Assembly: GCA_028821235.1 (NCBI GenBank)
Contig: JAPPGV010000079.1
Location: 1-58,159 of the forward strand
Source of the DNA: a bacterium
GTDB lineage: Bacteria; Actinomycetota; Acidimicrobiia; Spongiisociales; Spongiisociaceae
Length of the DNA: 58,159 bases
Reading direction: 5' to 3'
Shown: piece by piece, positions 7,259 through 50,135 of the stretch
Layout of the letters: every line of letters begins with the position of its first letter
Position numbering within the stretch: the stretch's first letter is position 1
Made by a program: the position numbers and the translations under genes
The notes under the pieces: generated by a model
Databases searched by the model: none
The model's input: only the letters and a program-made list of their open reading frames with translations
What the model was told of the DNA's origin: nothing

Positions 7259-9328
7259 GTGTTGCAGATCCTGGATCCGGCGGGGAAGCTGGTCGGCGAG
7301 CCGCCCGATCTGGACGGCAAGGACCTCTTGGAGATGTACCGGTTCATGGCGCTGGGACGGCGCTTCGACCGGCGGGCCATGAGGTTGCAGCGCCAGGGCC
7401 GTCTCGGCACCTTCCCGCCGGGAGAGGGACAGGAGGCTGCCCAGGTGGGTTCGGCCTACGCGCTCGAACCTGACGACTGGGTCTACCCCAGCTACCGGGA
7501 ACACGCCACCCAACTGGTCAGAGGGATGCCGTGGTCGGTCATGCTGTCGTACTACCGGGGCCTTCCCAACCGTGACTGGGATGTGCACCGGTACCGCATG
7601 AACATCCACACGATCCCGATCGCCACCCAACTGCCCCACGCTGTCGGGCATGCCCACGCCGCCCGCCTGGCCGGGGAGAACCTGATCACGATGGTCTACT
7701 TCGGCGACGGGGCCACCTCCGAGAGCGACTTCCACTCCGCGATGAACTTCGCAGGGGTCTGGAAGGCGCCGACCGTGTTCCTGTGCTCCAACAACGGCTG
7801 GGCGATCTCGATGCCGACCCGGCGCCAGACCGCCGCTACCGATCTGGCCGACAAGGCGATCGGTTACGGAATGCCCGGCGTCAAGGTCGACGGGATGGAC
7901 GTGCTGGCCGTCTACTCGGCCACCAAGGAGGCCGTGGACCGGGCCCGCCGCGGGGAGGGACCCACCCTCATCGAGGCCATCACGTACCGGTTCGGCCCTC
8001 ATGCCACCGCCGACGACCCGAGCCTGTACCGGAGCGAGAGCGAGGTGGAGGCCTGGCGGGTCCGTGACCCGCTCGACCGCATGCGCCGCTACCTCGACAG
8101 CCTGGACCTGTGGTCGGACGATATCGACGAGCAGGTGACGGACGAGGCGAGCGAGATGGACCTGGCCCTGGCGGAGATAGAAGGGCGGGAGCCGCCACCC
8201 CGGGAGGAAGCGGTGCGGCACGTCTACGCCAAAGTGCCCGAGGCGCTGTCCCACCAGTACGAGACGGCTCTGAGACGTGAGGACTCCGGCCCTTCCCGGC
8301 TGGAACCAGACGAGCGGTGGCGGATAGGGCACGATCCCGTGCTCGAGGGCGCCACCGCCCACTGGAACATGGCGGAGGCGATCAACGCCGCTATGGCGGA
8401 GGTCATGGACCGCCATCCGGAGGCCATCATCATGGGCGAGGACGTGGGCCGGACCGGAGGCGTGTTCCGCATCACCGCCGGCCTCCTGGACCGATTCGGC
8501 GCCGGCCGGGTCATCGACTCCCCGTTGTGCGAGACCGGCATCGCCGGGACAGCGGTGGGAATGGCCATCGGCGGGGCGCGTCCTCTGGTCGAGATCCAGT
8601 TCGACGGGTTTGTCTACCCGGCCTTCGACCAGATCGTCAGCCACATGGCCCGGTTCCGTTTCCGCACCAGGAGCAACGTTTCGCTCCCCATCGTGGTGCG
8701 CTGGCCCAACGGCGGCGGTATCGCTCCCCACGAGTTCCACGGCGACAGCCCGGAGGCCTACTTCGTCCACACTCCGGGCCTGACGGTGGTGGTCCCGTCC
8801 ACGGCCGTGGACGCCAAGGGCCTGCTGGCCGCGGCGGCGGAGAGTCCGGATCCGGTGCTCTTCCTTGAGCCCAAGGTGCTGTACCGGGCCGGACGCGAGG
8901 ACGTCCCCACCGGCTACTACACCCTCCCGATCGGGCGGGCGCGGATCCGCAGAGCCGGCGACGACGTGACGGTGGTCACCTACGGGGGAATGGTCCGCGT
9001 GGCGATGTCCGCCGCCGGCCAGTTGGAACGCGAGGGGGTGTCGTGCGAGGTGATCGACCTGCGCACCCTGAAGCCCTGGGACCGCGACACCGTGCTCGAC
9101 TCGGTGGCCAGGACCGGGCGCCTCGTACTGGTTCAGGAGCCTCCCCGAACCGCTGGAATGGCCGCCGAGGTGGCGGCCACGGTGGCGGAGGAGGCTCTGT
9201 ACGATCTCGAGGCCCCGATAGCGCGGGTGGCCGGCTTCGATGCCCCCTGGCCCCAGTTCGGGGTGGAGGCGCACGCCATCATCACCCCGCGACGGGTGGT
9301 CTCGGCCGTGCGGGAGACCCTCGGCTAG
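7259..9328 (+). CDS. 2-oxoacid dehydrogenase E1, alpha and beta subunits fused
   Basis: A ~690-residue protein in which an E1-alpha domain (residues ~15-345) is joined to an E1-beta domain (~355-689). The alpha part has the thiamine-diphosphate motif GDG (149-151) followed by NN (178-179), with SESDFHSAMNFAGVW between them. The beta part has MGEDVGRTGGVFR, the LCETGIAGTAVGMA block and HGDSPEAYFVHTPGLTVV. These enzymes decarboxylate pyruvate or branched-chain 2-oxoacids and pass the acyl group to lipoyl-E2. Subunits are usually encoded separately; here one polypeptide carries both. No E2, E3 or lipoylation gene is near, so the partner must be elsewhere. GTG 7259 is preferred over ATG 7229 because of the ribosome site. 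Confidence 0.85.
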   Translation: MLQILDPAGKLVGEPPDLDGKDLLEMYRFMALGRRFDRRAMRLQRQGRLGTFPPGEGQEAAQVGSAYALEPDDWVYPSYREHATQLVRGMPWSVMLSYYRGLPNRDWDVHRYRMNIHTIPIATQLPHAVGHAHAARLAGENLITMVYFGDGATSESDFHSAMNFAGVWKAPTVFLCSNNGWAISMPTRRQTAATDLADKAIGYGMPGVKVDGMDVLAVYSATKEAVDRARRGEGPTLIEAITYRFGPHATADDPSLYRSESEVEAWRVRDPLDRMRRYLDSLDLWSDDIDEQVTDEASEMDLALAEIEGREPPPREEAVRHVYAKVPEALSHQYETALRREDSGPSRLEPDERWRIGHDPVLEGATAHWNMAEAINAAMAEVMDRHPEAIIMGEDVGRTGGVFRITAGLLDRFGAGRVIDSPLCETGIAGTAVGMAIGGARPLVEIQFDGFVYPAFDQIVSHMARFRFRTRSNVSLPIVVRWPNGGGIAPHEFHGDSPEAYFVHTPGLTVVVPSTAVDAKGLLAAAAESPDPVLFLEPKVLYRAGREDVPTGYYTLPIGRARIRRAGDDVTVVTYGGMVRVAMSAAGQLEREGVSCEVIDLRTLKPWDRDTVLDSVARTGRLVLVQEPPRTAGMAAEVAATVAEEALYDLEAPIARVAGFDAPWPQFGVEAHAIITPRRVVSAVRETLG

Positions 9329-9375
9329 CCGGGTGCGGCTCGGCCTCCGGGTCGGGCGGCGCCCACGTCAGGTGT

Positions 9376-10068
9376 CTATGCCGGGCGCCCCGCCTTGAGG
9401 AATCTCGAACCGAGCATGATGAACCAGATCACCCACGGGAAGTAGCAGGCGCGTCCGATCGCGATCATGGCCTCGCTCGGGGTGGTGTAACCGATGATCA
9501 GCGCTGCAACGGAGATGGCGGACACCACGGCGATCACCAGTGCGGCCGTCCTGTGGAGGCCGCTACGTTCCCTGGCCGCCAGGCTCAGGCTGAAGGCCAG
9601 CAGGCCCAGCGATACGGCAACACCGGATACCAACGTGATGCCCAGCCCGGTCCGGTAGGTCGGTATGGCGGCTGCTAGAGCCTCCGCTGACGACACCCTG
9701 GTCTGCGCGAGCAGGTGGTCGAGCCCGGTGGCGAGTATCCATCCGACACCGCCCACGGTTGCGCTCAGCAGACCGAACCTCGTTCCGGCGGCGGCGTAAT
9801 CAGGCCCCGTGGTCACCCGGCTCACTCCGGACAACCCGTAGAGCAGGAGGAGCAGGCCGAGCGGTACGAAGAGCGCGGACAGATGCGCCAGGAAGGGATT
9901 CGCGGCCAGCGCGGTAATCCTGCCGACGGAGTCCATCGAATCCGCCGGCTCGACGAGCAGCCCGCCCGGCTCGACCAGGAAGAAGACCAGGGCCATGGCC
10001 GGCCCCACCATGAGCGCCCAGGCCTCCAGCCTGTGGATCGCATCGGTTCTCATGGAATCGGTTCTCAT
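9376..10068 (-). CDS. multi-pass membrane protein (DUF4386-like)
   Basis: A 230-residue protein with about six predicted membrane segments (for example residues 15-35, 65-85, 105-120, 145-165, 175-195, 205-225), resembling small DUF4386-like membrane proteins of unknown function. A similar protein is encoded at 57308-58006. The N-terminus contains a 15-base tandem duplication (MRTDS-MRTDA), giving two in-frame ATGs at 10068 and 10053; GGGGTG just upstream favours the first. It faces the E1 gene convergently (about 47 bases between stops). Confidence 0.7.
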   Translation of the reverse strand: MRTDSMRTDAIHRLEAWALMVGPAMALVFFLVEPGGLLVEPADSMDSVGRITALAANPFLAHLSALFVPLGLLLLLYGLSGVSRVTTGPDYAAAGTRFGLLSATVGGVGWILATGLDHLLAQTRVSSAEALAAAIPTYRTGLGITLVSGVAVSLGLLAFSLSLAARERSGLHRTAALVIAVVSAISVAALIIGYTTPSEAMIAIGRACYFPWVIWFIMLGSRFLKAGRPA

Positions 10069-10309: not shown

Positions 10310-10550
10310 CCACCCTCCCCAGAACGCGAAAATCGCGGGCGCCCGCCTCCGGCCCAGGGCCCTCCCCCGCCACCACCTGTCCTGCCTGGAGCGTGGTCGG
10401 CCATGCCCGGCCGGCTGCCGGGCGATCGGCCTTCGCTCCTCGAAGCTCGTCTGACCCCTTGGCCGGCAAACCGATCGGTCGGTAGCTGTTCACCGGCGTA
10501 GGTGACTAGCGTCAAGCAAGGTATACCGGGGTTGTGACAGATCCGGGCCA
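10310..10550 (+). repeat. intergenic repeat element, copy 1 (diverged)
   Basis: This stretch shares an ordered series of short blocks with 13021-13245 and 19910-20135: CGCGAAAAT, CCCTCCCCCGCCACCACC, GAGCGTGGTCGGCCATGCCCGG, TTCGCTCC, CCGATCGGT, and near the end GGTATACC...TTGTGACAG. It is the least conserved of the three plus-oriented copies. It lies in a 590-base gap between two minus-strand genes in which I see no other feature. The orientation given is arbitrary, matching the other copies. Confidence 0.6.
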
Positions 10551-40683: not shown

Positions 40684-40775
40684 CGGAGGCGGACGGGAAT
40701 CGAACCCGCCGGGGCACTCTCGTACCCCCACTGGTTTTGAAGACCAGGGAGCCCACCAGGCGCTCGTTCGCCTCC
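40684..40775 (-). tRNA. selC: selenocysteine tRNA (tRNA-Sec, anticodon UCA)
   Basis: The minus strand folds into a long tRNA: acceptor GGAGGCG...CGCCTCC with G discriminator (40684), D arm GAGC...GCTC, anticodon stem CTGGT-CTTCAAA-ACCAG with UCA in the loop, a long extra arm (GGGG...CCCC), and a T arm around GGTTCGATTCC. The length (92 bases), the UCA anticodon, the long extra arm, and the extended acceptor/T stack of 13 pairs are diagnostic for bacterial tRNA-Sec. CCA is not encoded. It implies that the organism has selA, selB and selD, none of which is in the window. Confidence 0.93.
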
Positions 40776-41226: not shown

Positions 41227-42534
41227 ATGATCTCCGAAGGCCGCCGGGGACGGCGCCTCACCGCCACCGTCACCGACCTCGAGGTCGCCCGGCAGAAGGC
41301 CTACCTCATCAGCGTCGACTTCGACGGGGCCGGCATCGGCGACGTCGATCGGTCACTCGAGGAGCTGGTCCTCCTGACGGATACGGCCGGATCGACCCCG
41401 GTGGCGACCGCGCCGGTCCGGCGCCGCACCCCGCACGCCGCCACCCTGATCGGTCCGGGCCAGGCCGCCGACCTGGCTCGAGACGCCCAGGCCCTGGACG
41501 TGGACGTGGTGGTGTTCGACAACGACCTGACACCTGGCCAGCAGCGCAACCTCCAGCAGGTCTTCGAGTGCGACGTGGTCGATCGGGTAGCCGTGATCCT
41601 GGACATCTTCGCTCAGCACGCGACCAGCCGGGAGGGCATGCTCCAGGTGGAGTCGGCCCTCCTCCGCTACCACCTGCCCCGGCTACGCGGGAAGGGGACC
41701 GCACTGAGCCGGCTCGGTGGAGGCATCGGGACCAGGGGACCCGGCGAGACCAAGCTGGAGACCGACCGGCGGCGGATCCGGCAGCGCATCACCTATGTGG
41801 AAAAGCGCCTGAAGGACGTCCAGACCGTCCGGGAGGCCCAGCGCAAGACACGCACCGGTTCGGCCATCCCCCTGGTCTCGCTGGTCGGATACACCAACGC
41901 AGGCAAGTCCACGCTGTTGAACGCCCTCACCGGAGCCGGAGTGCTCACCCGGGACCGCCTGTTCTCCACCCTCGACTCGACCACCCGCCGACTCGAGCTC
42001 CCCACCGGGCGCCAGGTGTTGCTGTCCGACACGGTGGGCTTCGTCCGCAGGCTGCCCCATCAACTGGTCGAGGCATTCCGTTCCACCCTCCAGGAGACGG
42101 TCCAGTCCGACCTGCTGCTACACGTGGTGGACGTTGCCGAACCCGGTGCGCCCGGCCAGATCTCGGCGGTGAGGGAGGTACTCGGCTCGATCGGGGCCGG
42201 CCAGATCCCCGAGCTCCTGGTGCTCAACAAGTCCGACTCAGCCGACAGGACCGGTATCTCTCGCTTCGAGCAGCTGTATCCGGACGCAGTGCTCGTCTCG
42301 GCTGCGGAGGCCACCGGCCTCGAGGAGCTGGCGGACCGGATCGCCGGCGTGCTGACCCGGGGCTTCCTGGAGATCGACCTGGTGATTCCCTACACCGAGG
42401 GATCCGTCCTGGGGGAACTCCGCCGCGAGGCGGAAGTGCTGACCGAGGACCATAGGGCGGAGGGCACCCTGGTCAGTGTCCGGCTGCCTCCCGACCGGGC
42501 CGGACGCTACCGGCGCTTCTCCGCGGTCGGCTGA
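41227..42534 (+). CDS. hflX: ribosome-associated GTPase HflX
   Basis: A 435-residue HflX GTPase. The N-terminal HflX domain contains the GPGQAADLARDAQALDVDVV block near residue 76 and RLGGGIGTRGPGETKLETDR near 161. The G domain has G1 GYTNAGKSTL near 220, G3 DTVGFVRRLP near 265, and G4 NKSD near 335. HflX binds the 50S subunit and splits or rescues stalled ribosomes. Length and motif order are usual for the family. The upstream 102-aa gene lies 34 bases away. Confidence 0.92.
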   Translation: MISEGRRGRRLTATVTDLEVARQKAYLISVDFDGAGIGDVDRSLEELVLLTDTAGSTPVATAPVRRRTPHAATLIGPGQAADLARDAQALDVDVVVFDNDLTPGQQRNLQQVFECDVVDRVAVILDIFAQHATSREGMLQVESALLRYHLPRLRGKGTALSRLGGGIGTRGPGETKLETDRRRIRQRITYVEKRLKDVQTVREAQRKTRTGSAIPLVSLVGYTNAGKSTLLNALTGAGVLTRDRLFSTLDSTTRRLELPTGRQVLLSDTVGFVRRLPHQLVEAFRSTLQETVQSDLLLHVVDVAEPGAPGQISAVREVLGSIGAGQIPELLVLNKSDSADRTGISRFEQLYPDAVLVSAAEATGLEELADRIAGVLTRGFLEIDLVIPYTEGSVLGELRREAEVLTEDHRAEGTLVSVRLPPDRAGRYRRFSAVG

Positions 42535-46101: not shown

Positions 46102-48654
46102 ATGATGACCGAACCCTCCTACCGGTTGCCCCGCCGAGTGGTCCCCCGCCACTACCGATTGCGGATGGAGCCCGACCTCGATACCGCCACCTTCGCCGGG
46201 TCCGAGGTGGTGACCCTGGACGTGGTCGAGGCTACCGATCATGTGGTGCTCAACGCCGCCGAGCTGCAGATCGATCAGGCTCGATTCGTCCGTGGAGACG
46301 CCCGCGCCGAGGCCGAGGTCGAGTACGACGACGAACGGCAGCGGGCCACCCTCCGGGTCTCCGAGCCGCTATCGGCCGGCCGATGGGAGCTCCGCTGCCG
46401 GTTCACGGGCATCCTGAACGATCAGCTCCGGGGCTTCTACCGGTCCACGTTCGACGATGAGGAGGGAAACGAACAGGTCATAGCCACCACCCAGTTCGAG
46501 GCCACCGATGCCCGCCGCGCCTTCCCGTGCTGGGACGAGCCGGACTTCAAGGCCTCCTTCGGGGTCACCCTGGTGGTGCCGGAGGACCTGATGGCGGTCT
46601 CGAACGGCGCCGAGGTCGAGCGGGCGCCCCTCGGCGACGGCCGGGTGGCGATCACCTTCGCCGACACCATCGTGATGTCTACGTATCTGGTGGCCTTCGT
46701 GGTGGGTCCCTTCGAGGCAACCGCGCTGATCGATGTGAACGGGGTGCCGCTCCGTATCGTGGCGCCCAGGGGCAAGATGCGCCTGACCGGGTACGCGCTG
46801 GAGTGCAGCCGGTTCTGCCTCGACTACCTGGCCACCTACTACGGCATCCCGTACCCGGGCGACAAGGTGGACATGGTGGCAATCCCCGACTTCGCCTTCG
46901 GCGCCATGGAGAACCTGGGATGCATCACCTACCGGGAATCGGTCCTACTGGTCGACGAGGAGATAGCCACCTCGGCGGAGAAGATGCGGATCCTGGACGT
47001 GATCGGGCACGAACTGGCCCACATGTGGTTCGGGGATCTGGTCACGATGAAGTGGTGGAACGGCATCTGGCTCAACGAGGCCTTCGCCACGTTCATGGAG
47101 ATGAAGGCCGTCGATGCCTTCCGTCCCGAGTGGAAGCGCTGGCTGGAGTTCGCGGCGGCCGAGCGTCCCTGGGCGTTCAAGACCGACGAGCTGGCCGGAA
47201 CGAGGCCGGTGGAGTTCGAGGTGCGTTCTCCCGCCCAGGCGGAGGGGATGTTCGACGGCATCACCTACGGCAAGGGCTCGGCCGTGCTCCGGATGATGGA
47301 GCAGTACCTGGGCGAGGAGCCGTTCCGAGCCGGGGTCGAGAACTACCTGCGCCGCCACGCCTACGGCAACACCGAGACGAGCGACCTGTGGGAGAGCCTG
47401 GACGAGTCCTCGGGTCGCCCGGTGGGCGAGATCATGGACACCTGGATACTCCAGGGCGGTTACCCGCAGTTGACCGTCGGGATCACCGATGGCGGCATCT
47501 CCCTGGAGCAGAGCCGCTTCCTGCTGATCCCCGATCCTGCCGATACCCGCACGTGGAAGGTTCCGGTCCGGCTACGAGGGATGGCGGGCGGACACCCGTT
47601 CGAGACCAGCGTCCTGGTGGAAGGATCGCGGATCACGGTCCCGCTGGGCGGACCGGTTGATTGGGTGATCGCCAACGCCGGCGGGCACGGGTTCTACCGG
47701 TCGCGATACGAGGAGCCGTTGCTGGAAGCGCTCGTCGGCCGGCTCCACCTGCTGGATCCGGTGGAGAGGTTCGTGCTGGTGGACGACGCCTGGACCTTCG
47801 TCGAGTCCGGACGATCCGGAGTGTCCCGTTTCGTGAGCCTGGCCTCTGCCTTCGGGGACGAGCGCGAACAGGCGGTCTGGGGAGCCTTGCTGGGCGCCAT
47901 CGGCGCCATCGGGCACCATCTGGTCACTGACGGCGCCCGGCCCCGCTACGAAGGGTGGGTGGCCGGGCTCCTCGCCCCTCTGGCCGATCGGCTGGGATGG
48001 GCACCCGCCGACGAGGAGACCGACCTGGAGCGCCGCCTCCGCGGGCGGGTGATCGACGCACTGGGCCGGCTGGCCAACCTCCCCGAGGTGGTCGAGCAGG
48101 CCCGGAGCGTCTACGAGCAGCGGCTTGCCGACGCCACTTCGGTGGATCCCGAGGTGGCGGGGGCCGTCATCTCGGTCTGCGCGGCGCACGGGGACGCCGA
48201 CACCTACGAGAGGTTCCTCGACCGGTACCGGACCGTGCGCAACCCCCAGGAGTCCCTCAAGCACCTGCGGGCGCTGGCTTCGTTCGATGACGAGGACGCC
48301 GTGGATCGCACCTTCGAGCTCATCACGGACCGCACCGTCCGCAGCCAGGACACCAGCTGGGTGCTGGCCCGGATGCTGGCCAACCGGGTCACCGGTCGCT
48401 ATGCCTGGTCGAGGTTCAAGGATCGCTGGCATGGCATCCTCGAGATCGCCCCGCCGATGACCCAGTCCCGAATGGCGGACGGCTTCCCGGCCCTATCCCA
48501 TCCCGAGGTGGCCGCCGACGTGGCGGCCTTCCTGGCCGAGAACCCTCTCCCCCATGCCGCCAAGGCCGTGGAGCAGAAGCTGGAGCGCCTGTCGGCCCTG
48601 GTGAAGATGAGGGAGCGCGAGACGGGCGCGATGGCCGGGGCTCTTCCGGAGTAA
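46102..48654 (+). CDS. M1 family aminopeptidase (PepN-like)
   Basis: An 850-residue gluzincin aminopeptidase. It has the GAMEN substrate motif in FGAMENLGCITYRES near residue 272, zinc site HELAHMWFGDLVTMKWWNGI near 303 with the third ligand in LNEAFA, and the ERAP1-like C-terminal helical domain (after ~residue 530). It trims N-terminal residues from peptides. GGAG lies five bases ahead of ATG 46105 and two ahead of ATG 46102; the second ATG may be the true start. The selenoprotein gene follows at 33 bases. Confidence 0.9.
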   Translation: MMTEPSYRLPRRVVPRHYRLRMEPDLDTATFAGSEVVTLDVVEATDHVVLNAAELQIDQARFVRGDARAEAEVEYDDERQRATLRVSEPLSAGRWELRCRFTGILNDQLRGFYRSTFDDEEGNEQVIATTQFEATDARRAFPCWDEPDFKASFGVTLVVPEDLMAVSNGAEVERAPLGDGRVAITFADTIVMSTYLVAFVVGPFEATALIDVNGVPLRIVAPRGKMRLTGYALECSRFCLDYLATYYGIPYPGDKVDMVAIPDFAFGAMENLGCITYRESVLLVDEEIATSAEKMRILDVIGHELAHMWFGDLVTMKWWNGIWLNEAFATFMEMKAVDAFRPEWKRWLEFAAAERPWAFKTDELAGTRPVEFEVRSPAQAEGMFDGITYGKGSAVLRMMEQYLGEEPFRAGVENYLRRHAYGNTETSDLWESLDESSGRPVGEIMDTWILQGGYPQLTVGITDGGISLEQSRFLLIPDPADTRTWKVPVRLRGMAGGHPFETSVLVEGSRITVPLGGPVDWVIANAGGHGFYRSRYEEPLLEALVGRLHLLDPVERFVLVDDAWTFVESGRSGVSRFVSLASAFGDEREQAVWGALLGAIGAIGHHLVTDGARPRYEGWVAGLLAPLADRLGWAPADEETDLERRLRGRVIDALGRLANLPEVVEQARSVYEQRLADATSVDPEVAGAVISVCAAHGDADTYERFLDRYRTVRNPQESLKHLRALASFDDEDAVDRTFELITDRTVRSQDTSWVLARMLANRVTGRYAWSRFKDRWHGILEIAPPMTQSRMADGFPALSHPEVAADVAAFLAENPLPHAAKAVEQKLERLSALVKMRERETGAMAGALPE

Positions 48655-48687
48655 CGTCAGGACCGACACAGGGAGAGGAAACAGGCT

Positions 48688-49323
48688 ATGGATATTTCAT
48701 TCTGGGTTGACCCGCTCTGACCGTGGTGCTGGGTGACGGCCCGGTGGGTCGTCGACGAGGTAACTCCGGACAGGGACGTGCGGGTGGAGTGGGAACCGAT
48801 CAGCCTGATGTTCAAGAACGCTCCGGAACCGGGCTCCGACCGGCACCGGACGACCTCCCGGACGCACGGCATGTTGCGAGTGATGGAGTCGGTGAGAACC
48901 GAGTTGGGCAACGAGGGCGTGTTCCGCGCCTACTGGGCGTTCGGCACCCACATCCACAACGACGAGAACCTGTTCGACTTCGACGTGGCCGAGGCGTTGG
49001 CGGCCATCGGCATCGACCGCGGCCATGCCCGGGCCTTCGGTGACGGCTCGTGGGACGGGGAGATCCGCCGCCGCATGGATGCCGGGCTCGCGCTGGTGGG
49101 CGATGACGTGGGCACTCCGATCATCGCCATGGAGGATGCCCGGGGTGACCGGGTCGGGATGTTCGGCCCCGTGATCACCCGGGTGCCGGACCGCAACGAC
49201 TCTTTGCGGCTCTGGGACGGTCTGGTTGCCGTCACTGCCGTACCAGGCTTCTGGGAGCTGAAACGGACCCGCACCGAAAACCCCGAGTTCGGCGACCGGC
49301 CGGCCGGCGTTCCACCCCTCTAG
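48688..49323 (+). CDS. selenoprotein of the DsbA/Rv2466c family, Sec in the UPWC active site
   Basis: A 211-residue protein read through an in-frame TGA at 48718-48720 (codon 11). Before it the frame codes for MDISFWVDPL, after it for PWCWVTARW, giving DPL-U-P-W-C-W. Members of the mycothiol-dependent reductase family (Rv2466c) have FDPLCPWCW at the same place, and the C-terminus here also matches (VGDDVGTPII near residue 150, FWELKRTRTE near 193). Sec therefore replaces the first active-site Cys. A hairpin at 48734-48754 with GGU in the apical loop, 22 bases after the UGA, fits a bacterial SECIS. tRNA-Sec is encoded at 40684-40775. If UGA were a stop, the remaining ORF from GTG 48733 would lack the whole active site. 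Confidence 0.85.
48734..48754 (+). promoter_or_regulatory. bacterial SECIS-like hairpin behind the UGA codon
   Basis: Nine pairs form between 48734-48742 (UGACGGCCC) and 48746-48754 (GGGUCGUCG), including one U-G and one G-U pair, with a three-base loop GGU at 48743-48745. Bacterial SECIS elements lie immediately 3' of the UGA within the coding region and carry a G, usually GGU, in the apical loop at 16-37 bases from the UGA. Position and loop meet both rules. Binding by SelB is inferred. Confidence 0.65.
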
Positions 49324-49340
49324 GCAGCCGGAGAGAAGAC

Positions 49341-50135
49341 ATGAGCCATCCCGTCAGGATCTCGGTGCAGATCCGCCCCCAACACGGCGACTACCGGGAC
49401 ATCAGGGCGGCCGCCGTCCGGGCCGAGGAGATGGGCGTGGACATGGTGTTCAACTGGGACCACTTCTTCCCTCTGTACGGGGATCCGGACGGCAAGCACT
49501 TCGAGTGCTGGACCATGCTCGCCTCGTTCGCCGAGGTGACCGAGCGGGTCGAGATCGGCGCCCTGGTCACCTGCTACTCCTACCGCAATGCCCACCTGCT
49601 GGCCGACATGGCCCGCACCGTGGACCACATCAGCGAGGGTCGCCTCGTCCTGGGCCTCGGCGCAGGATGGTGCGAGAAGGACTACAGCGAATACGAGTAC
49701 CCGTTCGGCACCGGCGGGACCCGGCTCCGGGACTTCGAATCCGGTCTGTACCGCATCACCAAGCGCCTCCGGCTCCTCAACCCTCCCCCGGTGCGGGATA
49801 TTCCCATGCTGATCGGCGGCATGGGCGAGAAGCACACCCTGCGGCTCGCAGGTCGTTACGCCGACATCTGGCACGGCTTCGGCGGTCCCGAGACGCTCAC
49901 CCGCAAGAACCGAATCCTTGACAAGTGGTGCCGCGAGGCAGGACGTGACCCGGCCGAGGTGGAGCGGGCGATCGAGGTCGAGGATCCGCGGGACATCCAC
50001 CGCGCCGACGGACTCCTGGCGGCCGGGGCCACCCTGATAACGCTGTCGATCAACGGCCCCCGCTACGACCTGTCGGCAGTCCCCGACTGGCTTGACTGGC
50101 GGGACACTTGCAACGCCGCCCGACAAGGGGGTTGA
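49341..50135 (+). CDS. LLM class (F420-type) flavin-dependent oxidoreductase
   Basis: A 264-residue luciferase-like monooxygenase-fold protein. The N-terminus RISVQIRPQHGDYRDI, NWDHFFPLYGD near residue 37, the GLGAGWCEKDYSEYEYPF block near 109 and PMLIGGMGEKHTLRLAGRYADIW near 155 are typical of actinobacterial F420-dependent enzymes. Substrate unknown. It starts 18 bases after the selenoprotein stop with a good ribosome site (GGAGAG), so the two redox proteins are probably cotranscribed. Confidence 0.85.
   Translation: MSHPVRISVQIRPQHGDYRDIRAAAVRAEEMGVDMVFNWDHFFPLYGDPDGKHFECWTMLASFAEVTERVEIGALVTCYSYRNAHLLADMARTVDHISEGRLVLGLGAGWCEKDYSEYEYPFGTGGTRLRDFESGLYRITKRLRLLNPPPVRDIPMLIGGMGEKHTLRLAGRYADIWHGFGGPETLTRKNRILDKWCREAGRDPAEVERAIEVEDPRDIHRADGLLAAGATLITLSINGPRYDLSAVPDWLDWRDTCNAARQGG

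Follow-up and report, generated by a model that had tools for sequence, protein, structure and literature searches.

The window analysed here, a stretch of 58,159 nucleotides of acidimicrobial DNA, contains a gene of the Rv2466c/DsbA-like reductase type whose reading frame holds a single internal stop, TGA at codon 11 (Table 1). With this TGA read as selenocysteine (Sec, U), the frame 48688-49323 on the forward strand translates as MDISFWVDPLUPWCWVTARW..., a protein with no visible signal peptide. The sequence context GGAGAGGAAACAGG around the putative ribosome-binding site recurs in most congeners. The gene lies between those for a PepN-type aminopeptidase and a luciferase-like oxidoreductase, an order that is common to the genus and family and that was not seen outside the family in the flanks examined. 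The order across 46102-50135 also resembles the neighbourhood of Mycobacterium tuberculosis Rv2466c, which we take to adjoin pepN (Rv2467). Mechanical scanning of the window for further TGA-interrupted frames yielded 43 candidates; by eye, a recognisable selenoprotein motif was found only in 48688-49323.

Table 1. Features of the predicted selenoprotein locus, with positions in the window
Feature	Position	Strand	Basis or remark
Predicted selenoprotein gene, Rv2466c/DsbA-like reductase, 211 aa	48688..49323	+	ATG start, TAG stop
UGA codon 11, predicted to be read as Sec, nucleophilic active-site position	48718..48720	+	Translation and comparison with relatives
Codon 14, resolving Cys of the UxxC motif	48727..48729	+	Translation, family alignment
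VGTP loop, residues 141-144, cis-proline-type loop of thioredoxin-fold enzymes	49108..49119	+	Conserved in alignments
Purine-rich ribosome-binding site GGGAGAGGA, ~9 nt 5' of ATG 48688	48671..48679	+	Sequence
SECIS-like hairpin, 8-bp stem GACGGCCC/GGGTCGTC, GGU loop at 48743-48745	48735..48753	+	Comparative data
GTG of Val16, false start from mechanical ORF calling that drops the active site	48733..48735	+	ORF list
tRNA-Sec, anticodon TCA	40685..40775	-	ARAGORN and Rfam (77 bits)
Upstream neighbour, M1 aminopeptidase (PepN type)	46102..48654	+	Order conserved in genus and family
Downstream neighbour, luciferase-like oxidoreductase	49341..50135	+	Order conserved in genus and family

The read-through protein matches the Pfam family PF22234 (Rv2466c-like) along the entire profile (1-180 of 180; E=8e-39, 134 bits against a cutoff of 27) and, more weakly, the DSBA model; no NCBIfam model scored above its cutoff. 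Strong sequence matches in the PDB were to Rv2466c and its mycobacterial homologues (131 bits to 4zil). The CPWC active site of the family is present as UPWC, with Sec replacing the first Cys. An earlier note on this DNA had placed the TGA at the family's first active-site Cys, within sequence that is family-like on both sides; this agrees with the PF22234 and PDB alignments, where DPL-U-PWCW stands opposite DPLCPWCW of 4zil and 4nxi. Judging from these alignments, the Rv2466c-family protein encoded at 48688-49323 is full-length. An AlphaFold2 model, built from 13 Sec-form sequences with Sec entered as Cys, reached a mean pLDDT of 91 and placed residue 11 immediately before the helix spanning residues 12-25. 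Each of its ten best PDB matches was either Rv2466c or its counterpart from M. leprae, and the fold is predicted to be closest to the solved structures of Rv2466c. We take the cis state of the VGTP loop to be a property of the family.

The position of the TGA is conserved among relatives. A first contig scan recovered eight relatives, one at 53% identity, and all eight have TGA at codon 11. When 395 Acidimicrobiia genomes were then searched and codon 11 was read, TGA was found in 43 genomes, representing 42 distinct proteins and ten family codes down to ~53% identity, and TGC or TGT in 27 other homologues. A phylum-wide sample yielded matches from many other Actinomycetota, and the 15 inspected from outside Acidimicrobiia, including those with a TGA inside the match, encode Cys at codon 11 without exception. 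Plasmid records yielded homologues only below 60% identity, mostly from Streptomyces and Mycobacterium. On a tree the Sec label requires 3 changes versus 21.5 for shuffled labels, so that the trait is clustered and has switched few times, in a direction that this count does not give.

A hairpin, GACGGCCC-GGT-GGGTCGTC, starts 14 nt past the TGA. As the earlier note had counted, 22 bases separate the TGA from the GGU loop, which is GUU in other genomes. The stem is paired in 279/288 cells (97%) of the distinct Sec forms, compared to 117/216 (54%) in Cys forms, and all nine unpaired Sec-form cells are A-G at the loop-adjacent pair. Across 25 distinct sequences, 96% of stem cells pair, as opposed to 17-61% for slid partners. 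Moreover, one stem pair shows two compensatory double changes, from G-C to A-U in homologue L038 and to U-A in L058, and because both sides of this pair are third codon positions the protein is left unchanged. Third-base entropy in the conserved codons 16-25 is 0.58 bits, versus 1.13 bits in other conserved codons (p=0.007), and the Val16 codon is GTG in 41/41. Of the checks proposed in the earlier note, that of the hairpin supports the selenoprotein reading through comparison: among relatives the hairpin is conserved and covaries. In the single sequence it is not exceptional (z=-0.78, with 9% of synonymous recodings folding as well). Such a hairpin is ordinary for this GC-rich DNA, and single-sequence folding was rejected as proof of a SECIS; Rfam returned no match to the hairpin. 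Taken together, the comparative data suggest that the element at 48735-48753 behaves as a SECIS element.

Two observations concern the Cys forms. The full hairpin, as GACGGCCC-GTT-GGGTCGTC, is retained in L056, a Cys form with CPFC from a complete 4.83-Mb genome (G027), where it may be the relic of a Sec ancestor and of a recent Sec-to-Cys change. L060 (genome G265, Cys) and L016/L061 (genome G368, Sec) form a well-supported sister pair in which the hairpin has decayed in the Cys member.

Genes for Sec decoding accompany the Sec form. The tRNA-Sec gene is 7.9 kb from the reductase gene, in accordance with the 8 kb of the earlier note, and ten genomes from this family show a spacing of 7-12 kb between the two; in more distant genomes they lie on different contigs. 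Under strict filters, 37 of the 43 Sec-form genomes have a strong tRNA-Sec match (at least 64 bits). The draft genome of the window (G000) encodes selD (L006, G000:C28:48646-49566, 375 bits), in whose matched frame codon 11 is likewise a Sec-type TGA (GGGUASKLG). Neither selA nor a true selB was found in this draft. Its selB-like matches L002-L005 cover only the N-terminal GTPase part, score far below the cutoff and were rejected as SelB. With the selA-selB locus of a congener as DNA query (L120; selA at 6659-7987, selB at 7993-9777), the end of contig C69 of G000 falls at query base 5088 and that of C155, a contig of 10032 bases, at query base 10392; the absence of selA and selB from the draft is probably explained by the unassembled gap between C69 and C155, in which both would fall. 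The two genes score above cutoff in 41/43 Sec-form genomes, the exceptions being G000 and one genome that is 68% complete, and they are present in 9/9 sampled congeners. The earlier note had treated absence of selA/selB/selD from the complete genome as evidence against a selenoprotein. Taken literally such an absence holds for selA and selB in the draft, but contigs end on both sides of the locus; of the machinery it had called for, selD is present in the genome itself and selA and selB in congeners, although not in the draft. Among Cys-form genomes selA occurs in 20/27 (Fisher p=0.02 versus Sec forms), and the machinery therefore does not require the Sec-reductase gene.

The TGA could instead be an ordinary stop, either in a decaying gene or between a 10-codon leader peptide and a shortened protein initiated separately at GTG 48733. 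Mechanical ORF calling does pick this GTG, just as the earlier note had anticipated for automatic annotation. However, the product would lack residues 12-15 (PWCW), which are invariant, and in the structural model a GTG start would cost the fold its first strand, along with both residues of the active site. Nor is this start general: in the relative L016 the corresponding codon is CAG. Codons 1-10 differ among relatives almost only at synonymous sites, and pN/pS against relatives is 0-0.31 upstream and 0.10-0.60 downstream of the TGA, which indicates that the frame is under purifying selection both 5' and 3' of this codon. Decay of the downstream sequence in related strains, which the earlier note had named as a possible counter-argument, is excluded because relatives, with the TGA retained in 43 genomes, also keep the frame beyond it under selection. 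We therefore regard termination at codon 11 as very improbable.

It is similarly hard to credit that the TGA arose by an error of sequencing or assembly, or belongs to a reassigned code in which it is read as another residue. In favour of an error, the source is a draft metagenome assembly, but the identical TGA is found in 43 independent assemblies. In other genes of the window, ORF 41227-42534 among them, TGA is the normal stop, and a hairpin that is conserved in Sec forms and has mostly been lost in Cys forms fits Sec decoding rather than reassignment. Comparison among relatives shows a conserved catalytic TGA, a selected continuous frame, a covarying hairpin and decoding machinery. We put at roughly 95% the probability that the locus encodes a selenoprotein of the Rv2466c family, a DsbA-like reductase of thioredoxin fold in which Sec, decoded via the hairpin, is predicted at residue 11 (U11).

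For this predicted selenoprotein we infer the following route of Sec insertion and catalysis. Translation would start at ATG 48688, and SelB with Sec-tRNA-Sec, guided by the hairpin, would decode the UGA at 48718 as Sec, allowing ribosomes to proceed to the TAG at 49321. The probable substrate, attacked by the selenolate of U11, would be a disulfide or else a mixed disulfide formed with a small thiol; Cys14 would then resolve the intermediate as a selenenylsulfide. Re-reduction would fall to a small-thiol/flavoprotein reductase system, possibly involving the mycothione reductase of the genome. At neutral pH a selenolate is ionised, and it is both a better nucleophile and a better leaving group; the enzyme would therefore be expected to exchange faster and to recover better after over-oxidation. 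Sec would also be expected to lower the redox potential and pKa of the reductase. In Rv2466c itself the role of nucleophile belongs to the first Cys and that of resolving residue to the second (PMC8280269, citing Rosado et al. 2017).

The earlier note had described the enzyme as of mycothiol type, a label on which the findings are divided. In the window's genome, to which this evidence pertains, a mycothione reductase is clearly encoded (NF005884, 630 bits versus a cutoff of 501), and its nearest PDB chains are mycothione reductases. MshC (TIGR03447) was not found in the same genome, where the sole match is cysteinyl-tRNA synthetase (CysS), nor in the 24 genomes searched of the same order, where scores cover the same range, up to 299 bits. 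The respective loci in G000 are C89:155749-157101 (L135) for the mycothione reductase and C17:4540-5727 (L134) for the CysS match. A second match, resembling MshC, is present in the other Acidimicrobiia searched, above 380 bits in 21/22 (the last is a fragment at a contig end); no match reached the MshC cutoff, and the two groups are separated by score and by comparison with CysS. Acidimicrobiia outside the order that have the Sec form also carry this second, MshC-like match. A reductant other than canonical mycothiol in this lineage, either another small thiol or a protein thiol, is conceivable at somewhat less than even odds: the lack of an MshC match in the genome and order speaks for it, while the mycothione reductase speaks against it, and MshC could be substituted by a paralogue or an unrecognised enzyme. 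The broader proposition, that the whole order keeps mycothione reductase and the Sec Rv2466c-type reductase without MshC and uses a small thiol that differs in kind or in how it is made, we consider rather unlikely.

Compared to Rv2466c of M. tuberculosis (PDB 4zil, 4nxi, 5xur), the predicted Sec protein shows full-length homology, the same fold (TM ~0.8), the PWC-W active-site context and the VGTP loop. The nucleophile is Cys19 there and would be Sec here; the mycobacterial enzyme uses mycothiol (PMC8280269), whereas MshC was not found in the lineage of the window. The same paper describes NCgl2478 and NCgl2339 of Corynebacterium glutamicum (DsbA-Mrx1 cluster, CPFC) as distantly related to Rv2466c, at 29.8% identity and below. 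These proteins have only Cys, but the proposed chemistry is alike, with a low-pKa first residue as nucleophile, a second, resolving Cys, and reductase rather than oxidase activity (PMC8280269). FrnE of Deinococcus radiodurans (5cnw, 5cp1) shares the DsbA-like fold and is likewise a disulfide oxidoreductase of cytosolic type, but is distant in sequence (E=0.015, 13-15% identity).

DsbA-like selenoproteins with a UxxC motif have been listed since 2005 (PMC1088965, PMC2398784, PMC13188914). As described in these papers, the Sargasso Sea DsbA-like protein (COG2761), GOS DsbA 1 and 2, and 'DsbA-like form 1' (PF01323) share Sec in the first position of the CxxC-type motif. Compared by description, they are entered under PF01323 or COG2761, with no mention there of Rv2466c, PF22234 or Acidimicrobiia. 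In the open-licence text of the selenoproteome papers queried, without figures and supplements, no mention of Rv2466c, mycothiol, PF22234 or Acidimicrobiia was found, and searches of the open-licence literature found no report linking a selenoprotein to mycothiol, or selenocysteine to Acidimicrobiia. It is possible that a Sec form of Rv2466c type was included earlier under a generic DsbA label, and the listed entries may overlap with it. Within this literature, the statement of the earlier note that it knew of no described Sec form of the family, although the Sec DsbA-like class is known, stands.

In summary, automatic annotation of this gene loses the reactive site, and with its recovery a family known biochemically and structurally would join the list of predicted selenoproteins. 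The M. tuberculosis member of this family activates a prodrug. The Sec and Cys forms offer natural pairs to compare, some of them as near as close sisters (L016 with Sec, L060 with Cys), and the distribution of the TGA points to Sec at a catalytic site across a class of actinobacteria that is widespread and mostly uncultured. The finding raises the question of which small thiol is used by those Acidimicrobiia that have the Sec reductase.
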